Below, piece after piece: positions 1,466 through 21,086 of a DNA stretch of 21,170 bases. Where the stretch lies: positions 3,789-24,958 of the forward strand of contig JAMYWO010000023.1 of NCBI GenBank assembly GCA_024220525.1. The letters run 5' to 3'. Within the stretch, counting starts at the first letter, position 1, and each line of letters begins with the position of its first letter. This stretch comes from Cochliopodium minus. Its lineage: Eukaryota > Discosea > Himatismenida > Cochliopodiidae. The notes beneath the pieces were generated by a model. It searched no databases. It was not told the DNA's origin and was given only the letters and a program-made list of their open reading frames with translations. A program made the translations under genes and the position numbers.

Positions 1466-4400
1466 CTAATTATTCTCCTTGATTCTGAAAATGGTCTTCA
1501 AATAAGGCAACATAGGGATCAAACCGCCAGTAACTTCGTTCTGAAAATTGTTCAAAGTGCAGAGAGGAGACAAAAAGGTCTCAGCGCTGTCGAAAAAAGT
1601 CTTGCATTCCTTGTTCTCTGTGAGTTTTTTATGATAAAAGAGCTGGGTTTTGAGATTATTCAAACTGTAATTCATTTTGTTTAGATCGACGTTCTTGCCC
1701 TTCTCAAAAATGATTCTTTCGAGGTACAAGAGGCAAGCAGAAGAAGCGATTTTGAGACGAGAAGTCATGAAGTTCTTGGAGAGGGTGGTGTAAATGGGGT
1801 TGTTGGGAGAAAAAAGGGCTCTCAACTTTTTGAGGGAATCAAAAGCCTTTCCTTCAATGGTATTCACGTTAGGAAGATAATTGACATCATAAAAAGGGAA
1901 TCTCTTGTCGTTAACGATAGAAAGAGAGTAAAGCCACAAACTCAAACCGTCCAAAATGTAGTTAGAGTTGAGTTGGAAGGAGGCGATATAACCCAAAGAA
2001 GGGATGGCGAACTGATTGAGCCAGTCGGGGTTAGGCAAGTTGTTGTACTCGGTCCTTTGCTTCTCCAAGACGACAACGAGGGTCATGGAAGATTGGGTGG
2101 AGACACAGGCCATGGAATGATGAGCAGGGACGGCGCTGGAAAGTTGGAGGGCTTGCGAGACGGTGGCCAAAGGATTCTCGTCTTCGTCACAATGAGTGAA
2201 ATAAGTTCTCAGCGAGATTTCGAGGATGGGAAACAAAATGACGGGTGATTCGATTAATTTAGGTGACAACGAAAGGTTGATGAGACATATCTCTTTTGGA
2301 GCGGTCGAGAAGTTTTGGCAGATGAGTCCGTGAATTCTCTTTTGCATGTCTTTGTTCTCGTTGACGAGCTTGCTGGGCGACTCGGTGGTCACTGAAAGGA
2401 CGGACGATGTTGGGATTGGTTCTTGCCACAAATTCTCTCCGATACAAGACAACAGATCTGTGAGAATACGCAAAGTGCAATCAGAGTTGGGAAAAGAGAT
2501 TCTCGAACTGATCAAAAAAATAAAAATAAATAAAAATAAAAAAATAAAAATAAATAAAATAAAAAATAAATAAAAATAAATAAAAATAAATAAAAATAAA
2601 TAAAAATAAAAAAATAAAAATAATAATAAAAAAGTTTCAAAAAAAAATGAACTATAAAAATGAAACGAAGAAAAATTAAATTTTTGATTACCTTGGTATT
2701 AAGATTTGGGAGATGATGGAAACATGGGAATCAAAAGACAAATACCAATAATGTCCTTGCTGGTTCACTGTATTGAAAAAGAGGATACTTCTGACCTGCC
2801 TGATGAAAGCAGCGTGCAACTGTGGTTGGTTCATGGAAGAGATAGTTGATCTCAAGATGGAGATGTTCTCCAACACTTGATCAGTGGGATCAATTTGAAC
2901 TTGCCCGCTGATGATCATCTCGATCAAAAAGTTGTTGGATTTCAAAAAGTTCAAAACAAAGTTTTCGTCCAAGTTCTTCCATTGAAACAAGTTTCTGACA
3001 AACTGGATCTTCTGCTCGGAAATCTTTTTTTCTTTGTCAGTGTTGTCGAAGATCAAGTTGTCACACCTCAAGACGTTGGTGTCCAAGTACAAGAGCAAGA
3101 AGTGCAAAGCGTTGTCGTTGGTGATGTATTGATCCAAGTTGGTCCAATCGAGCTTTTCTATGAGCTTCAAGATGAAATCTTTGTGTTTGGTGATGTAGAA
3201 ACGGATCTTGGAGAAACTTCTGGGATCTACTTTGTGGAAATCGGCTTTAGACCAGTCGAAGCTTGTCAAAGCTTCGGATATGATGCCTTGGTCGTGGTGT
3301 CTGTAGGATACGACTTGATTGTAAAAACTCTTTTCGTACCAGTACCAGATGTTGTTGATGAGTGATGGATCCTCGCTTGAATGGGAGATGCTCTTGATCA
3401 ATTGTAAAACAGGAAGGATATCCTTGACTTTTCTTCTTCCCTCTGTGAAAGGAGCCAAGATTCCGTTGATGATAGAAATCATCTCGTCCCACAAATCCAA
3501 TTCTTGGGAGATTTCGTTGTTTGTTTCTGATGGATTCTTTTTCTCTTTGGAACATTGGATCAAGTTGACAAGATAGTTCTCCAAAAGAAAGATCTTTGAT
3601 GCGAAATAAACTAATGAAGGGATCGAAAAGTTCTCATTGAATGGGAGATCAGCTTTGAGCAGACGAGAGATAGATCTCAATGTCTCTATTGGGATTTGTT
3701 TCCAATCGATTTCCAAAAACCATTTAGGATCATAAGATGTGATGATAGATCTTCCATCAATCTTTTGTTTTGATGCAGTAAACAATGAAGAGAAAGTCTT
3801 TTGCAAATTCTTTGGGAAATCAAGTGCAAACAGTTTCTGTAAGACATTTCCTGCAAACTTGTTAGTTTCTTCAAATCTGAGCAAGTAAGGAGCCAGATTG
3901 ATCAATCTCTCGATATCAGAAGGATTGTTTTTCGATAAGATTGTTTGAACAGAGTTTTCCAAGTCAAAACTAGAAAATAATTGAGATTCTTCTTGTCTAG
4001 TGAGTTTAAGAGGAGAAGAGGTAACCTTTTTCAACATTTCAAGGTACTGTTCGGTGTTGTTGGAAAGAAATTGAGTAGGAGTGAACAAATGTAACAAAAT
4101 TTGTCTATTTTCAAAGAATCTGTTGAGAAGAATGTTGTCTTCTTCGTTTTCCAAAAGCAAATCGGATTGTTTCTGTGTAATTAAGGTATGTTCGGTAATG
4201 TTGGAGTTAGAAGAAGCGTTCAAAAAGTTGTGCAAAAATTGGATTTGATTCTCAGGCTTCAAAATGTTTTTACCCAAGTTGTAGGTAAGACGGATGATCT
4301 TGGAGGTAGGAGGGGAATAAGGAGGCAAGTAATTTAAAACAATGATTTGAAGTAAAGAAAAGAACAAAGAGAGAGGAACCTTTTCCGAATCGCTTTGTTG

Positions 4401-7400
4401 TGCTTTCAAAGAAAGTTGCTCAAGTAAAACAGTATAATTGGCAAGAGCACGAGATTGTTCAAATAAAGAGCCATAATAAGTCGACATTAATTCTCTGTTT
4501 CTGGCGATCTCATCTTTCAAGGTTGGAGAAATGGGTGCACTCAAATAACTCACGACATTTAATGAAGCAGGTCCTTGGCAAAAATTTTTTCCTCTTTCAC
4601 AGAATAATTTGACAGTTTGATTACGAGGATGATTAAAAAACAAGTTTCTTGAAAGTTCTAGAAAATGGATATCTGATTTGTAAACTTTGTCCCCAAGTTC
4701 ATAGTACAAAGACAAAATAGAGGTAAGTTCTTCACTTGAAGCAAACACTTGCTTATCATTTTCCAAGTTTGAAGAAATAGAATTGTACAATTTGTTGAGG
4801 TTGGATTTTCTCAACTCTTCCTCCTTTATTTTTTTCTTGTAAGTTTCCTGAGGGAGTTCTTCTCTTTGTCCCAAAAGCATTGCCAAATTCTTCTTAGTTA
4901 TAACCAAAAACCTTTCTATGCTGTCCTTTTCGAAAATGTCCAAACCTTTTTGATTGGGAATCATTGAGAGGTTCGGAGAGAAGTTGTGAAAGTGAGAAAC
5001 GTGAGATTGTTCATTTTGGGCAAGAATTAAAAAGGGAGGGTTCAAAATGGTAAAAGCTTGCAAAATGTGGGAATTCTTGAAAAAAGATCCGTTCTCGACA
5101 ATTTTGTCTTCAGAGAATGAAGAGAAAGAAACGAATAGATTTGCAATGGCTGTAACATTCACAAAAGCTTGACTGACTTGAATAAACAAAAGTTTTAGTT
5201 CTTCTTTCAGGGTTGGAGGAACCAAATGTCTTCTGTCCTCAACTGATTTCTTTGCGAAATAAAGCTCCCAAAACTTTTCCCAAAAGATGAGAGAAAGAGA
5301 TGCATTTTGGGAAATGCTTTGTCTTCCAATTAGTTGGAGAAGTCCGAGAGAAGACTTTTCAAATTCTCCAAAGGTATGAGGATAAAGTGGTTCGTAAGCT
5401 TGCGCGTAAGCATATGAAATCCATGGAAACTTTGAAGAAAATTTGATGATCTCCTCTCTTTCAAAGTGCTGAGAGCTGATTGTGTCAAATAATGCACTCC
5501 AATTTGATCTTTCGTGAAAAGTGATGTTGATCAAGGTTTCAAAGAGCAAACAAAAGAAATGATTGGTGTTTGGTGAAAATATTTTTTGAGAGAGCACAGA
5601 AGCCCAAACTTGGATCCAAAGTCTTCTGTTTTTGGAATTGGACAATTCATCTCTAGAGTTTTTGCAGGCCAAAGAATCTTTCATCAACTTGTCAACAAGG
5701 AAATATCTATTTTTAGAATCAGTTGAATTATCGTTCTTTCCCAAAAAGTTGGAAAGAACATCAGCAAGAAAGTTTGATTTCATCAAAGGTTTGAATCTCA
5801 TCAAAGAAAACAAAGCTTGTAAAATGCAGACTCCAAATTGTGGTTTGTTGGAGAATTTGAGGAGAACACGTTGGATTCTTGGGAAGATAGAGTATTGAAT
5901 CTCCAACCACTGGGGAGAATAAATCTCGTCTCCTTCTCCCAAATCCATCTGAACATTTAGAGAAGTAAGATAGAGAGCCAACATCACTTTGGCGACTTCT
6001 ATCTCATCTCTGCACAACATTTCCTCTTCTTGCAAGTTTAGGATTGTGTCCAACCAAGGTTTTGCGTTCTTGAGCTCCAACAAAATTTCTTTTTTGGTCT
6101 TTGGATTGTTGAAACTAGTGTAAAAGAGGCCAATTTGCTCAGAAAGCAAAAATAGAAAGATTTGATCACTTGGCAAGCCAATAGTCTTAGAAGATAACAG
6201 GATCATCATACCTTTTAGCTTGTCCAAAACAGACTCATTCTTCCAGTTGATAGATTGCCAGATATTAAAACCAAGAATATAACCATTGAATCTTCTGAGA
6301 AGCTCTAATTGAGTTTGTTGGACATTGGTGGGTCTCAAAAGACAGATATCTCTCCAAAAATTGACTTCAGAAAGTAGGTGTGATTGTTCTTCCGGTACAA
6401 AAATGTTTCTGTAGCACATCAAAAATGAAATCCATTGTATGCTTTTTGTGTCACACTTCCAGTTCTCAAAGATAGAAGGATTGAGCACCCAGACAAGAGA
6501 TTGTGTATCTATGATGGTGAAATGTGTTGCAATTAACTCGATAAGCTGTGAAAGATATTTAACTCCCTCTGAGCTTTTGCAAATATCAATGATTTCTTTT
6601 TGTGCTTCTTGTTTTAAAGAAGGGATCCATTTAGACAAAGGCAATCCCAAATTGATAGGCTCGTAAGAAAAGTAGAAAAGTTCTTCAAACCATAGCTTTT
6701 GCAAAGTAGGATTGATTTTGCTGATTTTGTTGAATGCTTTAAAATGAGGGTAGTGTACTCTTTCTAAGTTAAGTTCTATTTGGTAAGCCTCAGTGATAAA
6801 ATTCTGGTTTTTGAGCAACTCATTGACAAATTGGATACGATGTTCGACCTTTTTGCTTTCTTCGAGTGTGAGATAGTTTTGGAAGTTTTCAACAGTCTCA
6901 AGTTTATACAATTCGATGAAAACCAAAAGAGAGTCTTCAGTAGAAAGGATATACCAAGGAAATAGAGGATATAGTACGCTCAAGAGTGAAGAGCAGTTGC
7001 TAGGGCTTCTTGTGAGCATGGCACAGCACTTTGTTCCTTCGCTTGGGAACAGTGAAACGGTTTGCTAAATTTTAAAATTAAAATAAACAATAAAAAATAA
7101 AATTGAGATTTACCAAAACCAATTTCCCGATTAATAAAATCAACTTACTATAGCCTGTAGAGTAGAATCTTTTGAAAGCTTGTTGCAGAGGTAGCAAAAT
7201 AAACTTTTGTGTCTCATCTGTGCTCATTTTTTGGACTTCGCTCCAAGGAATTTGTTGTAAAGCCTCAACATAAACATATTCAGGGTAGAACCTCTCCCCA
7301 CCAGATGTCAACAACTTGGAAATCCAGTTGTTTCTGATTAACTGTTGAAGGTTAGGTTGTAACAATGACTTTGCCCAAGAAATACATCCTGTATGCATCA

Positions 7401-8610
7401 CCTTTTTGAGTAAATAAGTGTGGATAAGATCTATTTTGTTTTCCATAGTGCTTTCTTCAGTATTTTCTGAGAATTGTTTACGAACGAACTCTACATCAAT
7501 GTGAAACTCTAGACTCAACAACTTTCCTGATTCATTGTTGGTATGTTGTTTTTCTTCAACGGAAAGTTGTGAAAGTAATAAAGATCCCAAAGAAAGAACC
7601 AAGTTTTTCAATTCCTTTTCTGTGTTTTTGCTGAGATGGATCTTTTGATTGTTCTTGATGCTGTTATGGGCAATGATATCAAATAATATATCCAAAATCT
7701 CTATCAAAAGAGGAAAATCAGTCTTTATTTCATCTATATTCGAAAAGATATATCTATCCAACAAGATCTCTGCATTAGTCTGTTCATATAAACTTAGAAA
7801 AATGTTTCTTATATTATGCTGATTGATGGCTTTGAATTCAGACATCAATTTATTATAGATGTTTTCATCCACAAACACCAAATCATTCTTTTGTACATAC
7901 GTGGCAATTTCATTACATGCACAATTAGCAGAGTAATTTTTTTTCGCATCTTGTTTTATCCAAAGACTATTATAAAGATTTTGGATGTTCTTTTCTGTCA
8001 ATGTTTTGATATTCAAAGCTTTTTCGTGCTTGGTGGAGGAATGGCAAAGGATTTTGGTCAATTTCTTGAAATATTGGATATCTATCTTTTTATTTTTGTT
8101 GATGGAAGGTTGTTGAAACAAATTTTCCAAGTCATTCTCCGATTTCGTTTGTGAGATATCCTGAAAAAGAAAATAATTGTTGCTATTATCATTATTATCA
8201 TCTAATTCATTAATTGGTCTCATAAAATCTATATTAGGTGTTTCCAATTTTGGTGGCTCCAATATATTGAAAAGATTATTATTATTTGAAGGTAGATGTT
8301 CTTGATTATTTTCAGATATATTTTCTTGTTCTTTGATTTCATTGGTATTATTAATGAAATCAAAATTGCCAATCAATGACGTGCCAATTAAATTTTGATT
8401 TACAAATGGGTTGATTTGTGTCATCAAATGTGATTCATTTTGGTCTTCATGCTCTCCCAAAACATTATTATTATCAATTTGATTTGTGGTCTCAATATTT
8501 TGGACAGAAAAGTTGTTTATTGATTGCAAATCCCCAAGCAATGAAATTGTTGGCGTAATATTTTGATTATTTCCATCATGTTCAATTGAATTAGGGTTAT
8601 TTTCGTCCAT
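1466..8610 (-). CDS. EPG5: EPG5-like autophagy tethering protein
   Basis: EPG5 is a Rab7 effector that tethers autophagosomes to late endosomes and lysosomes and promotes SNARE-driven fusion. The gene reads as three exons, 8610-7114, 7064-2692 and 2507-1466, joined by a 49-nt phase-0 intron (donor GTAAAT) and a 184-nt phase-2 intron. The product is 2303 residues; human EPG5 has about 2579. Recalled human landmarks appear in order: SVLYPLFPWYIL near 530; LIGRQ followed by SLIFWEKFWELYF near 1070; a Cys-rich GKNFCQG followed by a helix and the SLFFSLLQIIVL segment near 1325-1420; FDWSKADFHKVDP then KLDWTNL near 1775; and SPNNPIYTTLSKNF near the C-terminus. The first 200 residues are Asn/Gln-rich and disordered. 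An in-frame ATG at 8670 could extend the start; 8610 was preferred because the added stretch is AT-rich and leader-like. The 4.4-kb middle exon contrasts with its intron-rich neighbours. The 3' exon is visibly richer in G+C than the 5' exon. Confidence 0.85.
2508..2691 (-). repeat. Simple-repeat tract inside EPG5 intron 2
   Basis: Most of this intron (about 2514-2640) is a run of TAAAAATAAA-type units on the plus strand, so it is T-rich on the sense strand. The splice sites, GTAATC and TTGATCAG, sit at its edges and keep phase 2. Such tracts are prone to slippage, so the length may differ between strains or assemblies. Confidence 0.8.
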
Positions 8611-8886
8611 AGAAGTTGATAATTGAAAGAATTTTTTTTTATTTAAAATATGCATAAATTTCAATATCAAAATAAAATCACAGTTTTTATATTCAAATAA
8701 TGGTTTTGTTTTTTTCTGTTAAAATTATTTACAATATTGGTTTCTTTGTAATTGAACATTTCTTTCACCTTTTCCAAATTTAATGTTGATAAATATTGTT
8801 TCCCAAATTAAAAAAAAAAATTGGAGGTAAAATAAGCAAAAAGATTAATACCATGGATGTTATAATATACTTTATAATTAAAATAG
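8611..8886. promoter_or_regulatory. Divergent spacer between EPG5 and the transporter
   Basis: These 276 bp separate two start codons pointing away from each other, so the region should hold both promoters. It is very A/T-rich with poly-A and poly-T tracts. I see no motif that can be assigned with confidence. Position is the only evidence. Confidence 0.4.
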
Positions 8887-10555: not shown

Positions 10556-10894
10556 GTAATTTTTAAATATTGTCCAATATTTATTTTTTCTTTTATTTTA
10601 TTTTATTTTTATTTTTATTTTGATTTTTATTGCAAAAATTTTATTTTTGTATTTTTTTTATTTTTTATTTTTTATTTTTTATTTTTTATTTTTTATTTTT
10701 TATTTTTTATTTTTTATTTTTTATTTNATAAAAAATAAAAAATAAAAAATAAAAAATAAAAAATAAAAAATAAAAAATAAAAAATAAAAAATAAAAAAAA
10801 AATTAATAAAAAATAAAAAATAAAAAATAAATAAAAAAAAAAAATTTTTTTAAATAAAGGATTCATGGGAGAAAAAACAAAAAAATAAAAAAAC
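10556..10894. other. Gap region: inverted heptamer simple repeat around one N
   Basis: From about 10655 to 10726 the plus strand repeats ATTTTTT with a 7-bp period. A single N stands at 10727. From 10728 to about 10830 the exact complement, ATAAAAA, repeats. The two arms mirror each other around the N. Both flanking genes are cut in mid-frame here, with the transporter 3' end expected on the left and the cullin 3' end on the right. An undersized scaffold gap or a false join through a simple repeat explains this better than real biology. No gene is visible inside. Confidence 0.8.
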
Positions 10895-13800
10895 CTTCCA
10901 ACTTGGAAGTAAACTGAGAACCACACTCAGGCTTCAACTTGGAAATCATGAGTTTCTCAGCCTCCTCAGAAACAGAACGGCCAAGCAACAAACGTTTGGA
11001 AAGATGTTTTTTATAAAAAGCTTCAAAAACATCTTTCCCATTAACAAAACTAAGTAAAGAAATCAAATCATCCAGTTTTCTTTCCAACTCTTCTTCTCCC
11101 ATTTTGCTTCCCCCCTTCAAGTAGTTTTCGCTTTCCATTGCTATCAGCTCTGCCACTTTGTTTGCTCTAGAGTTTATAAAGTAGATGAACCCTGACTGTA
11201 TGTCATTGTTTTTTTTTTTTTTCAAAAAAATAAAAAAAATGATTAAAAAAATTTTAAAAATAAAAAAAAACAAATTGAACTAAAAAATGGAAATGAAGTT
11301 ACAAAATATTTTAATTGAAATGTACAAAAATTTTGTAAAGCGTTGAAAATATTTTTTTTAATAATGATTTATTTATTTTTTACAAATTAATTAAAAAAAC
11401 GGAAATAAAAATAAAATTAAAAGAAGAAAATAAAATAAAGAATAAAAAGAATGAAAAGAATAATAAATTAAAATAAAAAGATAGAAATAAAATATGATAA
11501 AAAATAAAAATAAAATATAATTTAAAGTACAAAAATTTGTAAAGCGTTGAAAATATTATCAGATTTGATTTTTTTTTTACAATTAAAAAATAAAATAAAA
11601 GTAAATTTTAAAATGCATTTTATACAATTTCATTAATATATAAATATTTTTTTTTTGTTTTTTTTTTTTTTTAAATTAATTTGTAAAAAATATTTTACAC
11701 GAAGGGTTTCTTTGAAAAGAGGGTCATTGAGGAAAGAAGAGGAGACAATGTTGGTGAGTTTTTCTTTGAAAAGAAGAAGCTCTTGTACCAATGTCTCCTC
11801 TTTGTTTTGATCATTCACCATCTCCAATCCCACTCTCTTACAATATGTCCCAAACGATACCTTTATTTAACAATTAAAAAATTTTAATAAACTTTTTAAA
11901 TATTCAAATAAAATAATTACAAAAAAATATTAAAAAAATAAATTAAAAAGATTACAAGAAAATTATGAAAAAAAACTTTTTTAAAATTATCAAAAAAAAA
12001 AAAATTAAAAAATAAAATAAAATAAATTAAAAAAATAAATTAAAAAAATAAATTAAAAAAATAAAATGAGATAAAATAAAAAATAAAATAAAAAATAGAA
12101 TTATAAAAAATCAAAAAAAAAAATTGTATACATTGATGGCTTCCACACTCCCCACTCTGCTAAATAATTTGTGCAACAAAGCCAATTGTTGCACATTGTT
12201 ATCTTCAATTAAACCATCAAACCCTGTTTTTTGAAAAAAAAAATTTTTTAAACAAAAAATATTGAATGTAAAAAAATTATTTCAGAAAAATAAAAAAATT
12301 AAAAATCAAATAAACAAAAAATTAATAAAATATCAATGATTCTTTGATTGCCAAAAAAAAAAAAAATCAAGAAATAAAATATAAATTGAAAAAAATTGTG
12401 ATTATTTTAACAAAATGATAAAAAAAAAAAAATATTGAAAATATTTTACATCATAAAAAAAAAAAAGAAAAAAAAAGAAAAAAAAAAAATATTGATTTAA
12501 AACCATTGACCAGAAGCTCCTCGACATGAAACTGAACAAGCTGCTGCTCAGTAAGATCCAACAAAAGTTTCTTAGTCTTAGGATCCAAATAATGATGAAC
12601 ACGATCAGATTCCAATTGACGTTTAGATTCAACGTAAAGGAGATAATCAGGTAAAGTGCTTTTCAACACTTTTTCTCTGCTTTCTACTTCGTAATGTTGT
12701 TTCGTCTCCTTCAAAAACAAAACTTCGAATTGATCGTAAAGTTGCAACGTGATGAACATTCTCAGTGTGTTTTTAATCAGAATTCTGTCCACTGTTTCTC
12801 CTTCCCTGTCTCTTTTTATTGTGTGAAGAATCTCCTCCTTCAATTCTTATTTTTTTAAAAAAAAAAATAAATAAAAAATAACAATAAAAAAAAAACCAAA
12901 ATAATGTAAATAAAATGAAAGGATTGAAAGAAAATGAAATGAAATAAAAATAAAAAATAAAAAAAAAATTATCAAAAAAAATTATCAAAAGATAAAAAAA
13001 AAAATGAAACGAAAATTTTCAATTTCTGTTTAAAAAAATGATAAAAAATTGATTAAAAATTAAAAAATAAAGAATCAAAAAAATGAAATTATAAGAAAAA
13101 AATAAAAAAATAAAAAAATTTCAATTTATTAAATTTTTGTTTAAAAAAAAATGATAAAAAAATGATAAAAAATAAAGTTTTTACTGTTTTCAATGGAGGG
13201 ATTTTCGATGATGATTTGGCGAAACAGCTCATCGCCCATTTTAACGATGGGTTTGACTTTAGAAGCGTAACTCGTCTCCAAAAGAATGAAGATCTGTTTA
13301 ATGAGTATTATTTGGCAACAATGTAAATCCCAACACTCGTTTATCAAGTCCAAAAACCTTTTTAAAAATAAAATAAAATTAAAAAAAATGAACAAAAAAT
13401 TTTATGAAAATAAAGATATCTTTTTAATAATTTCAAAAAAACAAAATAAAATAATTAATTAATTTTTAAAAAGGAAAAAAGATAAATCAGTTCAAATTTT
13501 TTGTGTTGGTATTTAATTATTTAAAATAAATTTCTAATAAACTAAACTAAAATAAAAAAAAAAAAAACCTCTTGTTAGAAAGCTCATTGGAGAGTCTTTT
13601 CAACTCTATTTTCATGTGTTCTTCTTGTTCTTTTTGCAATTTATTGTACAAATTTTCTGAGAGTTTGTTTTCCACCAAGTCTTCACAACACTTTTATTAA
13701 AATGGAAAAAATTAATTTTAATTTTAATTTTATTTGGGGATTGTTTTATTTTAGGTGAAATAATTGAATTGAATTAATTTATAACCAAATATATCCTTAT

Positions 13801-14581: not shown

Positions 14582-15647
14582 TTATAAATCATCACTGCCC
14601 TCTGATTCCTCATAGACCTCCCCCTTTAGATGTTTAACAAAATCGTCGAAAATTTCAGGCATAGAACCAGAATCATCGTATTTATCGAGGCCATTAGCAG
14701 TAACATGTCTGACAAATTCCAAAAATTGATTCCAAGTATCTTTTGAAACAACCCTTATTTTCTTTTGATCTTTAATAAATTCCTCCCATTCTTTGAGATA
14801 TTTGAATCTGTCAGCAAATACGAGTTTCCACAAACCAGAAGCACCATCAATATCAAGCACTTTGGAGTTACTTTCTTTTGCATAACTAAAAATCCATTGA
14901 TAAAAATTTTTGAAGATGAGGTCGTCAAATAATTGGGCTCTGAGCGCTCCAATCTTTTCTTTCAATTTGGCCAAACTATCAAATCTATTTTAAAAAAGAG
15001 CAAATTTTAGTTTATAATAAAGATATTTCGAATCGAAAGAAAATTGATTCATACTGCAATTCTTCTGCTGCATGTTGAAACTCAGGAAGACTGATCTCTG
15101 AAAATACTTTGGCTTGGCAATGGAAAGAAAACAAGAAAACAATGATATCATCTGCATCAACACCAATTTCTTGAAATAATTTCTCGATACCTTCCCATCT
15201 AATGACATCTTCATCAGAATCTTGGGCTACATTCAAGAAATTAAATTTAATTGGAAAAAATCGATAGATTTGTTTATATGAGTTTATAAAATTTATTTTC
15301 CAAAAAAAAAAGCTTGTTCACCTTTATATTTGGTAAAAAATTGAATAAGTTTTCCATCATCAACAGAATCTCTTTCAGGTGGAGGAGGTGATGGGGGATT
15401 ATTAAAAAACCCATCTACTGCTTCTTCTAATCTCCATCCTCCTCGCTCAAGAGCTTTGATTGCCATATTAGTGCTTTATAAAAATTGGGATAAAAAAAAA
15501 ATTTAGAAAAGTCTTTTAATTCATACTCGCAAGAAGTGAATTCTTTGAACTGTCCAACCAAATTTCTTTGAGTATTTGTTAATTTATTCTTTCAAAAGAA
15601 ATTATAATATTGAAATAAAAAAAATATAAAAGCTGGAAAATTACCAT
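14582..15647 (-). CDS. DCN1: DCN1-like protein (DCUN1D), cullin neddylation co-activator
   Basis: DCN1 proteins bind the acetylated N-terminus of the NEDD8 E2 and the cullin winged helix, and speed NEDD8 transfer to cullins. Exons are 15647-15645, 15588-15527, 15473-15322, 15226-15055 and 14984-14582. Introns are 53-95 nt, all phases agree, and the product is 263 residues (human DCUN1D1 has 259). The first exon is the ATG alone, then MNKLTNTQRNLVGQFKEFT follows as in animal homologues. A UBA domain (residues about 8-46) holds ALERGGWRLEEAVDGFFNNP. The PONY domain (about 75-250) shows LFQEIGVDADD, FKNFYQWIFSYAKE, LWKLVFADRFKYL, VSKDTWNQFLEF and YDDSGSMPEIFDDFV. The last motif covers part of the cullin-binding DAD patch; its usual Ala appears as Ser. 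The C-terminus is acidic. The gene lies 224 bp upstream of CUL4 on the same strand. Confidence 0.93.
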
Positions 15648-17226: not shown

Positions 17227-19323
17227 ATGAAATTAATTTCAACATCTTGTTTTTCTCATCACAATATTATATTATGTGGTAATGGATAAATGAATTACAC
17301 CATTTTATTTTAATTTCCCTTCAAAAGAAAATGGAGATGTTTACTCATTTGGCTATAATGATTTGGGTCAATGTGGGACAGGAATTAAAAGAGATGTATC
17401 AAAACCAGTGAAGATAATGAACAATCCAAATATCAAATGCATCGTCCTGGGATTGAATCATTCTTTCTATTTGGAGAGTAATAAAAAAAAAAGAAAGAAT
17501 TATATTTTCAAAAAATTATTTAATTAATTGTCAATTTATCCAGAAAATGGAGATTTGTATGGATGTGGTAAAAAAAGCAGATTTTTTTATTTTTTTATTT
17601 TATTTTTTAATAAAATATTATTTCTCTCGAAAAAGGATGCAATGAAAACGGGGAATTGGGAATAAAAAAACCACCGAATGTAGGTAAATTTGTAAAATTA
17701 TCTTCCAATGTCAAGTCTGTATTTGCCTCTTTCGAGTTTAGTGTAATCCAAAAAAGTAAAAATTTTTTTTAAAATATTTATCATCACATTTATTTTTTAT
17801 TGTGACATTTTTTTTTTAATTTTTTTTTTTTTTTTATTTTTTTTTTTAATAAAAGACAAGAGCTTACAATTTTTTGGGTTAAACCATGATATATCAAAGG
17901 CAATTAAAAAAGTGAAAACAGATGACATTGTGACAATGAGCTTTGGAGACAATCATTTTATAATTTTGAAAAGTAACAAATTAATAAATTAAACGAAAAT
18001 AAAATTAAAAAATTAAAAAAATAAATAAATTAAATCAAAATATTTAAATTATCTTTTTTTAAGGCACTGGGGAAATTTGGGCAATGGGGTCCAACCAGTA
18101 TGGAGAAACGTATTTTTTTTTTGTTTAGTTTTTAAAAATAATTTTTTTTTTTTTTATTTTATTTTTTATTTTTTTATTTTTATTTTTAATTAATATTTTT
18201 CAATTGAAAGAGGTTTTGAGAAAAAAACTTGTAACATTAAAAATCCAAAACTTTTAATGGTGGATAAAAATGCTTTTTCAGTGTGTTGCGGATACGACCA
18301 TACCTTCATTTTGTCCAGTATTTTATTTTATATATTTTTTTTTTTATATTTTTTTTTTTATTTTATTTTTTTATTTTTTTTTATTTTAATTCAATTCAAA
18401 ATTTTTTTTTAAAAAGAAAATAATTTAGGGAAAACAGTTTTAAATTGTTTTGGAAAAAACGAAAATGGACAGTAAATAATTTAATTATTTTTATTTTCTT
18501 TAATTTAATTTAATTTTTTTTTTTTTTTATTTTTAGATTGGGACTGCGACATGACCAAAATCAATTTGGTATGAAAACTATTGAAACTTTTTCAAATATA
18601 AATTCCATCCATTGCGGTGCTTATCATTCTCTGATTTTGTTGGGTATTATAAATTTAAATTTTAAATTTTTTTTTTTTATTTTTTTAATTTTTTTTTATT
18701 TTTTTTTTTTGATTTTAGATGATGGGAGAGTTTTTGCAACGGGGCATAACCTTTATGGGCAACTCGGACTGGGAAATACAACACAATACACTGTTTTCAC
18801 GGAGACTTATTTAAGGGACATTACTAATATTTCTACTGGTTCTTATCACTCTCTTTTCGTAAACAGTAAATGTTTTTTTTTTTTTTTAATTTTTTATTTT
18901 ATTTTATTTTTTATTTTTTTTTTTTTAGAAAAAGGGGAAATTCTGGTTTGTGGAAATGGAAGATACGGAAATCTGGGTTTAGGTGACTCCACAAACTATA
19001 ATATTGCAATACACCTTGAACTTCCATCCAAAATAAAATTAATTCAAAGCCATGAAATTGATTTGGTATTTTTTTAGTTTTCTTTTTTAATAAAATTATT
19101 TTTTAAATATTTTTTTTATAATTTAATTTTTAAATATTAATTTAATTTTTTTTTTATTAACAAGGTATGGAGCCCAGAAGATCACAAGTACTTCCCACAA
19201 AGATTTAAAATTGTGGTTCTTTTTTTCCTTCTTAGCTTAAAAAGGATTTTCAGTCACAAAATATTTTCAAGCAAAATTCCAAAGCCTGTTCTTTTTATTA
19301 TCATCAAAGATACTCAACATTAG
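17227..19323 (+). CDS. RCC1-type seven-bladed beta-propeller protein
   Basis: RCC1 repeats form a seven-bladed propeller used in GTPase exchange factors, ubiquitin ligases and scaffolds. Twelve exons (17227-17278, 17328-17477, 17544-17567, 17636-17755, 17856-17972, 18064-18109, 18211-18317, 18429-18471, 18537-18643, 18719-18865, 18929-19065, 19165-19323) keep phase throughout and give 402 residues. Blades open with ENGDVYSFG, KNGDLYGCG, NKSLQFFG, STGEIWAMG, RKTVLNCFG, DDGRVFATG and KKGEILVCG. Most blades close with a His-containing strand such as CGAYHSLILL or TGSYHSLFVN. Seven introns are phase 1 and fall just before these openings. After the propeller comes WSPEDHKYFPQRFK plus a helical tail ending IPKPVLFIIIK, a C-terminal module I recall on propeller and BTB proteins of amoebae. 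An upstream exon ending at the AATAG near 17213 cannot be excluded. The partner is unknown. Confidence 0.88.
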
Positions 19324-19491
19324 CCAAAAAAAAAAAAATTTAATTTATTTATTATGTAATAATTATGAAAATCATAAAATCAAAATTAAAATTATTTTAT
19401 TTCATTTTTCAAAAAAATTAAATTCAAAGATCTGATTGAATTGATCCTCAAAAAAAGGAGTTATCATTTTAATATTAAAAACGTTTTTGAA

Positions 19492-19759
19492 ATGAATGGT
19501 AAAGTATAAAAAACAGAATTAAAAAAAGTGTATCATTTACCAAAAGCTTTTCTATGATGGAAGGGAGATAGAAGATGCATTTACTTTGAAAGAAGCAATT
19601 CAGGTTCCAATTAAATCTTTCTTACAGAACTTTTTTCAAAATATAGAAAAAGAATTTCCCATAACTCAACAATCAATTGGCCCTGTTGAGCTTATTCAAG
19701 GATGGAGGACACAATTAAACAAAAGCTTGGGCAATTGTATAATTTCTTTTGAAAACTGA
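19492..19759 (+). CDS. Unrecognised small gene, start uncertain
   Basis: The minimal model joins 19492-19503 (ATG AAT GGT AAA) to 19547-19759 across a 43-nt phase-0 intron (GTATAA to CAAAAG). It gives 74 residues: MNGKLFYDGREIEDAFTLKE, then a helical stretch with FLQNFFQNIEKEFP and PVELIQGWRTQLNKSLG before a TGA stop. Codons upstream of the ATG in the same frame, back to about 19429 (DLIELILKKRSYHFN), look equally coding but have no ATG before a stop at 19387. The true start may therefore lie in an earlier exon joined at CAAAG (19429). I do not recognise the family. It sits between the RCC1 gene and the F-box gene in the same direction. A gene remnant is possible. Confidence 0.45.
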
Positions 19760-19878
19760 TTTTCATATCTAAATCGAAGATGTGGAAAGTTCCTTAAATT
19801 ACTTGTCAATTCTTCTTTTCTTTACATCAAGCAATTTTCATTTTGAAAGCTGATTAAAGTAAAATAAAAATTGAACTG

Positions 19879-21086
19879 ATGGATTGGAAATCATTAGATA
19901 AAAATGAAAAGAAGATTCTTCTGTTGGGTGATTTCAACTCTATTTCTATCAATGTAATCAAAATTATTCTCACACATCTTGATTATCGGATCTTATGCGA
20001 AATGGCCTCTATTAATTCAATCTGGAAAGAGATTTCAGAGGATGATGGGTAAATTTACTTTAAAAATCGTTTCCAAATAACCAATAGACAATTCTCCTTG
20101 GATAGATTGTGGAAAATTTTATTTGAGAGGGAATTTTCTCAATCTCTATTCAATCAACTAAAGGAGCAATCAGGATGGAAAAATCTATTCATCAAAAATT
20201 GGGATATAGGTGAATTGGATGAAGGAAAGCACTATGGCAAGATTTTTGGCTAAAAAAGGATTGTTATCAAACATAAAGAGCATTTTCAAGAAAAATAAAA
20301 ATCAAGTTCCAGAAATACTCACTCATTTTTTAATTTTTGGAATGCCCAACTCTGGAAAAAAGTAAAAAAAAGGTGTTCAATTGAGTTTTAATATATTAAA
20401 TTTATAAAAAACAAACAAAGAAAATTGTTGAACAGATTAAAAATTGGAAGAACTAAAACAGAAAGGTCCCTTCAAAATCAAAATAGCAAAGTTTTCTACG
20501 TTGCACATGGTAGAATTTTTTGTTTGATTATCAAAATTTATTTAGTTTTTTAAAGAAAGTTTGAGGGTAACAAGTATTGGTAATATTGGTCCCAGTTTAA
20601 ATTCAACCAATAAAAAATTTATTTCAACACTGTAGATATTGATTCAAATTTGGGTAAGAATCTTTTCTTAATTAAACAAAACTTTAATTGAGAAAAAAAA
20701 AAAAGATTCTCTGACTGGAAAGTATTTCACAAAAGAAAAAAAAGCACTCATTTTTGTGTTTGATTCTTCGAACATTGATAGTGCTCCAGCAGCAAAAATA
20801 CGTGACAAAAACCAAAATAAAAATTTTTATTCAATTTTTTTATATTTTATTTGAAATAGAGCTGAAAAAACTTGCATTTTTGGAAGAAGTAAAGAATTTG
20901 CCACTTCTTGTTTTTTGCAACAAACAGGATCTCTTCGATGCAAAGTCTGTAGCGGAGATTTGTAACGAGTTGGGTTTGCACGAATTCAGGAAAAAGCGGT
21001 GGTACATTCAAACAGCATGTTTTTTGAGTTATGATGGTATTATTGAAGGTTTTGATTGGCTCTACCATTGCTTGAATCAAAAATAA
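19879..21086 (+). CDS. F-box domain fused to a degenerate Arf-like GTPase domain
   Basis: F-box proteins recruit substrates to SCF (SKP1-CUL1) ubiquitin ligases; Arf-like GTPases act on membrane traffic and cilia. Exons are 19879-20048, 20106-20209, 20259-20361, 20421-20509, 20556-20579, 20636-20653, 20706-20801 and 20860-21086, phase-consistent, giving 276 residues. The N-terminus carries an F-box: INVIKIILTHLDYRILCEMA, then SIWKEISEDDGLWKILFERE. The GTPase part has a P-loop GMPNSGKK (the usual Thr/Ser is Lys), a G3 position read as SIDIDSN instead of DxGG, strand KKALIFVFDSSN, an intact G4 VFCNKQDL, and the Arf C-terminus IQTACFLSYDGIIEGFDWLY. Nucleotide hydrolysis is doubtful. The join at 20210-20258 is a 49-nt intron by phase, but it could instead be a boundary between two overlapping genes: the F-box frame would run to TAA at 20253 (105 residues), and the GTPase frame has an ATG at 20234. 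The two exons at 20556 and 20636 are tiny and less sure. Confidence 0.65.

Follow-up and report, generated by a model that had tools for sequence, protein, structure and literature searches.

A candidate F-box-Arf fusion gene in Cochliopodium minus and its sister genes

Does the region at positions 19879-21086 encode one protein in which an F-box is followed by an Arf-type domain, and what would such a protein do? The region lies in a stretch of 21,170 nucleotides of Cochliopodium minus DNA (C23:3789-24958, assembly of 44.65 Mb in 598 contigs), which was analysed at its full length and is called the window below. The original prediction placed here eight phase-compatible exons that link an F-box to a C-terminal Arf-type domain.

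Gene model and neighbouring sequences

Eight exons were found in the region. Together with seven GT-AG introns of 39-59 nt and compatible phases, they give a translation of 282 residues without internal stop, 276 residues having been predicted originally (Table 1). Seven of the eight exons are exon-like in composition; exon 6, of 18 nt, is not. The Arf half of the model scored 94.1 bits against Pfam Arf (cut-off 22.3). The F-box half reached 13.3 bits against Pfam F-box, under the cut-off of 20.5, and F-box was absent from the matches when the fused model was scanned with Pfam at E 1. Against profiles made from five sister genes (see below), with the window gene excluded, the F-box half scored 51.4 bits and the Arf half 119.2 bits, the best of 2000 shuffles reaching 11.5 and 10.5 bits, respectively. 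Hence, assignment of the two halves to the Arf and F-box families was borne out in Pfam for the Arf half, and for the F-box half by the sister-gene profile though not by Pfam. When leave-one-out profiles were used, with both C423 genes omitted together, all six F-boxes (28.6-69.9 bits) exceeded 1000 shuffles (9.9-14.4 bits). The credibility of the window model derives from these sister genes and from the 24-nt exon 5 with its C423 counterparts; the fit of the phases says little.

Table 1. Positions in the window of the features of the candidate F-box-Arf gene and of the neighbouring cullin and Cullin_binding genes
Feature	Positions	Strand	Remarks
Exon 1	19879..20048	+	Start codon and first F-box part; in-frame TAA upstream at 19855; F-box by family profile
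Intron 1	20049..20087	+	GT-AG, 39 nt, contains in-frame TAA
Exon 2	20088..20209	+	Remaining F-box (LWKILFEREF...WKNLFIKNW)
Candidate intron 2	20210..20258	+	F-box/Arf junction, 49 nt; contains ATG 20234 and stop of F-box ORF at 20253
Exon 3	20259..20361	+	Linker and counterpart of Arf N-terminal helix (GLLSNIKSIFKK), as far as P-loop
Degenerate P-loop GMPNSGKKK	20339..20424	+	Split by intron 3 (20362-20420); Lys at the Ser/Thr place of GK[ST]
Exon 4	20421..20509	+	Switch I region; PTIGF motif absent
Exon 5	20556..20579	+	24-nt micro-exon between phase-1 introns; 24-nt equivalents in both C423 genes
Exon 6	20636..20653	+	Degenerate DxxGQ region (DIDSN); preceding phase-1 intron splits Asp codon, as in C243 and the C423 plus-strand gene
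Exon 7	20706..20801	+	Arf core strand (KALIFVFDSSN)
Exon 8	20860..21086	+	Arf C-terminal part and stop; intact NKQD at 20919-20930
Alternative first exon for separate Arf gene	20234..20361	+	Starts MARFLAKKGLLSN...; 20-nt overlap with F-box ORF
Cullin gene (PF00888) and adjoining Cullin_binding gene (PF03556)	10866-12846 and 14585-14989	-	Upstream of the F-box-Arf gene, at a distance of about 5 to 9 kb

Between an upstream RCC1 gene and the F-box exon lies a coding-like stretch on the plus strand (19420-19759), which matched itself only in a search of the genome and matched no Pfam family; it possibly represents upstream exons of the F-box-Arf gene or belongs to another gene. Elsewhere in the window, two long reading frames on the minus strand (2691-7064 and 7081-8718, 1458 and 546 residues) had no Pfam match at E 0.001.

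Sister genes of the same design

A search of the genome with the window F-box detected a gene on contig C243, and searches with the C243 protein together with a profile scan of 22 loci detected genes on C48 and C74 and two on C423, one on each strand. In all six genes, the window gene included, an F-box is followed by an Arf domain on the same strand. This number is a lower bound, since the 129 Arf matches in the genome, which include other GTPases, were examined in part.

Two of these genes bear directly on whether the domains are joined. A single 402-nt exon of C74 (L040 2431-2030) covers, in one frame, both the C-terminal part of the F-box and the Arf P-loop. The last residues of the C243 F-box exon, EGFFGRLTSK, resemble those with which a standalone Arf begins (MGIFGRLFNQ), and the exon is followed by a phase-1 GTAAGG donor that leads to the remaining Arf domain; the sole Met that could serve as a separate Arf start sits in the strand adjoining the P-loop. 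Since the two domains meet within one exon in C74 and again in C243, the fusion in these genes does not hinge on how the halves are spliced together; the family thus encodes one chain, and the homologues are not always two genes. With at least five further genes of this design in the same genome, the F-box-Arf fusion is, as a family, very probably real.

C243, C48 and C74 each gave a single model in which Pfam F-box-like and Arf were both above cut-off, C48 scoring 244 bits for Arf and 30.2 bits for F-box-like (cut-off 24.3). For the two C423 genes Arf was above cut-off and the F-box was under 24.3 (15.0 and 14.2 bits). Pfam Arf scores of the sister domains range from 122 to 244 bits. The F-box family profile matches solved F-box proteins (best E 3.7e-8), and the best match of the Arf family profile is to Arf1 structures (245 bits).

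The genes also share features of their exon structure. Introns at the Asp of DxxGQ coincide in C243 and both C423 genes, the codon being Ser in the minus-strand C423 gene. The window intron also lies within the Asp codon, yet it is displaced by two columns in the automatic alignment, and the same two-column offset separates the 24-nt exon 5 of the window gene from the 24-nt C423 exons. The two C423 genes lie tail to tail (L047 1-1720, plus strand, and 5981-4262, minus strand); over at least 1720 nt their 5' parts do not differ, and the fused models are 54% identical as proteins. The identity of the 5' parts would reflect gene conversion of recent date, or else an artefact of the assembly.

In a tree of the Arf domains, whose rows were assembled from the profile matches of single exons and contain gaps, the window gene groups with C243 (SH-aLRT 94.4, UFBoot 96) and the two C423 genes form a pair (98.4/100). 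The six fused Arf domains are not united in this tree, and a single clade of them is not rejected (AU p 0.082).

Three members carry additional sequences. RCC1 sequence is present upstream of F-box-Arf in C48 (in exons, above cut-off) and in both C423 genes (46 bits, above cut-off). In C423, RCC1 repeats and the first F-box helix occupy one open frame of 217 residues in the plus-strand copy and 229 in the minus-strand copy, and farther upstream each gene has Kelch-like sequence (best 42.9 bits, under the cut-off of 50). The window too has an RCC1 gene upstream (~17.3-19.3 kb), which was considered as the N-terminus of the F-box-Arf gene and set aside because it ends in a C-terminal tail of its own that recurs in the genome. 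The occurrence of RCC1 sequence upstream in C48 and C423 makes a past split at the window locus possible. The tail itself (19172-19323, WSPEDHKYFPQRF...) has at least 149 genome matches at E 0.1 or better among the 150 of 405 candidates that were scored, three of them within the window, and no Pfam match above cut-off; it appears to be an expanded, unnamed C-terminal module.

Three other loci were not counted as fusions. No Arf was seen after the F-box on C75, where the following sequence resembles MORN repeats. On C171 the F-box is downstream of Arf in a separate ORF, and on C73 a weak F-box match (15 bits) lies 2.2 kb upstream in a frame that overlaps another ORF. Two viral contigs (L073, L074) encode two Arf-family proteins; no F-box was found in the 2 kb flanking them on each side.

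The junction in the window copy

That an F-box and an Arf domain stand in one chain, as originally predicted, holds at the exon level for C74 and C243; for the window gene it depends on the region 20210-20258. Around this junction we tried 20 GT-AG pairs of at least 25 nt, of which 8 are frame-compatible and 6 of these open. Given that 8 of 20 pairs fit the frame, frame fit is weak evidence. Donor 20210 alone retains the F-box; it has three frame-compatible acceptors, among them 20258, which retains the counterpart of the Arf N-terminal helix. The donor hexamer GTGAAT is absent among 24 sister introns, and intron 7 of the window gene begins with GTGACA.

If the 49 nt are an intron, one transcript would run across the window gene. 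A different reading keeps the fusion family as true and takes the window copy as broken or split, by decay or by an assembly error, with a frame change that leaves an F-box ORF and an Arf ORF overlapping by 20 nt. Several features are consistent with such a break. The composition of 20210-20258 is exon-like (log-odds -11.6 bits, versus -1.7 to +15.6 bits for the other six introns), and this region, when read as coding with a frame change, brings the score against the family profile to 166.4 bits versus 159.9 bits for the spliced form; as the read-through form is ahead by 6.5 bits, the window gene may be frame-shifted or decaying. Moreover, C243, the closest sister of the window gene, is without an intron at this linker position, the ATG at 20234 immediately precedes ARFLAKKGLLSN, and neither the P-loop nor the DxxGQ motif is preserved in the window copy. 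What speaks against a broken copy is that the GT-AG intron has the right phase and occupies the same alignment column, with the same phase, as the introns of both C423 genes, and that all exons except the very short exon 6 have kept exon-like composition. A search of the genome for a second copy of the junction DNA, as a check on the assembly, found none. We regard a broken window copy as rather unlikely.

The simplest alternative, two ordinary adjacent genes encoding a small F-box protein and then a separate Arf, would account for each half having its own ATG, that of the Arf ORF being at 20234. It would also require the two ORFs to overlap on the same strand, and the same F-box/Arf order in five other genes, and the join within single exons of C74 and C243, speak against it. 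In view of the sister genes we consider it very improbable. For the junction of the window copy itself, three readings compete: a 49-nt intron of exon-like composition, a change of frame, and a pair of ORFs that overlap (20234-20253). The balance tilts moderately towards a fused product from the window copy.

State of the Arf domain and proposed role

The catalytic Gln of DxxGQ is present in none of the six fused genes. It is replaced by N in the window gene (where the alignment is gapped and the residue was judged partly by eye), E in C243, P in C48, L in C74, and R and H in C423. Among the Arf-family genes without F-box found alongside, it is present in 18 of the 21 that were readable, the exceptions being C39 (H), C41 (S) and C171 (N); the C39 gene we take to be Sar1-like. 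The difference between fused and other genes is significant (Fisher p 2.8e-4) when related genes are treated as if they were independent. Here, without F-box means no family-profile F-box in the flanks of 22 loci, plus 8 loci (best 7.1 bits). The count covers 29 loci and omits, as set aside before counting, the duplicates L044 and L055 and a Ras-type match on C206 minus, together with genes unreadable at an exon edge (the second genes of C3 and C23, C173, C2 and C144). The C41 gene (L055 1749-850, minus strand) has DMGGS replacing DxxGQ, and its extension resembles ankyrin repeats (Ank_4 12.2 bits, below cut-off); it is perhaps another Arf fusion without the glutamine.

Other motifs are retained in part. 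The P-loop GxxxxGK[ST] is intact in four of the six genes (C48, C74 and both C423 genes) and lost in the window gene and in C243 (GLDKIGRKS). The NKxD motif is kept in the window gene, C48, C74 and the plus-strand C423 gene, altered in the minus-strand copy (NHQD) and lost in C243 (HKIK). The counterpart of the Arf N-terminal helix is internal, after the F-box, which for the window gene depends on the fused model; since the Arf N-terminus is internal, N-myristoylation of Gly2 would be excluded in the fused protein. Judged by the lost residues, the fused Arf domains would be unable to hydrolyse GTP, and that of the window gene is probably unable to bind GTP in the usual way. The GTPase-like fold of the original prediction thus stands as an Arf domain recognised by profile, and not as an ordinary GTPase, its P-loop and catalytic residues being degenerate.

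The F-box would dock the fused protein on Skp1 and a cullin in an SCF ligase. By its place after the F-box, the Arf domain would be the partner-binding part, a fixed docking module that captures Arf-binding proteins (effectors, coats, regulators), and the captured partners would be ubiquitinated. The genome has six Skp1 matches, and the window itself carries the cullin and Cullin_binding genes. SCF assembly, nucleotide state and substrates are inferred. Our preferred interpretation, held with moderate confidence, is that the F-box-Arf fusion genes number at least six, that the one in the window has diverged most among them, and that it encodes an SCF adaptor in which the Arf domain serves for docking and does not hydrolyse GTP. 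More tentatively, the proteins may be SCF adaptors that use the Arf, locked in one state, as a receptor baiting Arf effectors, coats and regulators for ubiquitination, with an RCC1 propeller in three members (Kelch-like sequence in two) adding a second binding surface.

In TRIM23, B-box and coiled-coil lie between RING and ARF in the domain order. The protein, also named ARD1, is described in the part of the source available to us as a RING ligase with a C-terminal ARF and ARF GTPase activity (PMC12068639). The F-box-Arf genes resemble it in having the ubiquitin-ligase part N-terminal and the ARF domain C-terminal, and differ in that the link to the ligase is an F-box and that residues for hydrolysis are lost; no RING or B-box was found when the F-box-Arf models of the window, C243, C48, C74 and C423 were scanned with Pfam. 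By analogy with TRIM23, the fused Arf might still function as a regulated switch by which the ligase is turned on or off, and the P-loop of four genes and the NKxD of four would fit such a role. Replacement of the catalytic Gln in all six genes, loss of the P-loop in the window gene and C243, and a Gly following the F-box that would not be open to N-myristoylation speak against a switch, which we consider unlikely.

FBXO8 consists of an F-box and a Sec7 domain. It thus differs from the present genes in having Sec7 in place of Arf itself, and Sec7 had no match in Pfam scans of the same models. The likeness is that of an F-box protein tied to Arf biology: in the part of the source available, FBXO8 is listed with the Arf GEF family and may act through Arf6 ubiquitination (PMC4644846). 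Arf1-type GTPases, the best structural match of the Arf family profile, differ from the fused genes, which are without a free N-terminal Gly and without the catalytic Gln, and in two of six without the P-loop.

The original prediction could not assign the architecture to a standard family. The architecture is not unknown, as the section available of Vargova et al. 2021 (PMC8358228) names the F-box among the domains of multidomain ARF members, and describes F-box+ARF architectures as generally lineage-specific and as a recruitment of ARF members into ubiquitin circuits. The present set shares with those proteins the combination of F-box and ARF-family domain in one protein, at the exon level in C74 and C243 and, for the window gene, depending on 20210-20258. 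The present set is multi-copy, has RCC1 upstream in three genes and is without the catalytic Gln, whereas the text of that section gives no sequences or motif state. Among the papers listed in a literature search for the F-box+Arf architecture, none besides this one dealt with it, and in the main text, as available, of a paper on an anaerobic amoeba genome (PMC11550330) no F-box was found. As far as the literature searched and that section show, what is new is the multi-copy set, the presence of RCC1 sequence ahead of the F-box in three members, and the loss of Gln from all of them.

Among ubiquitin ligases with an Arf domain of their own, TRIM23 is the well-known example. The presence in one genome of six F-box-Arf genes that all lack the catalytic glutamine suggests a reuse of the Arf fold as a fixed docking module of SCF ligases.
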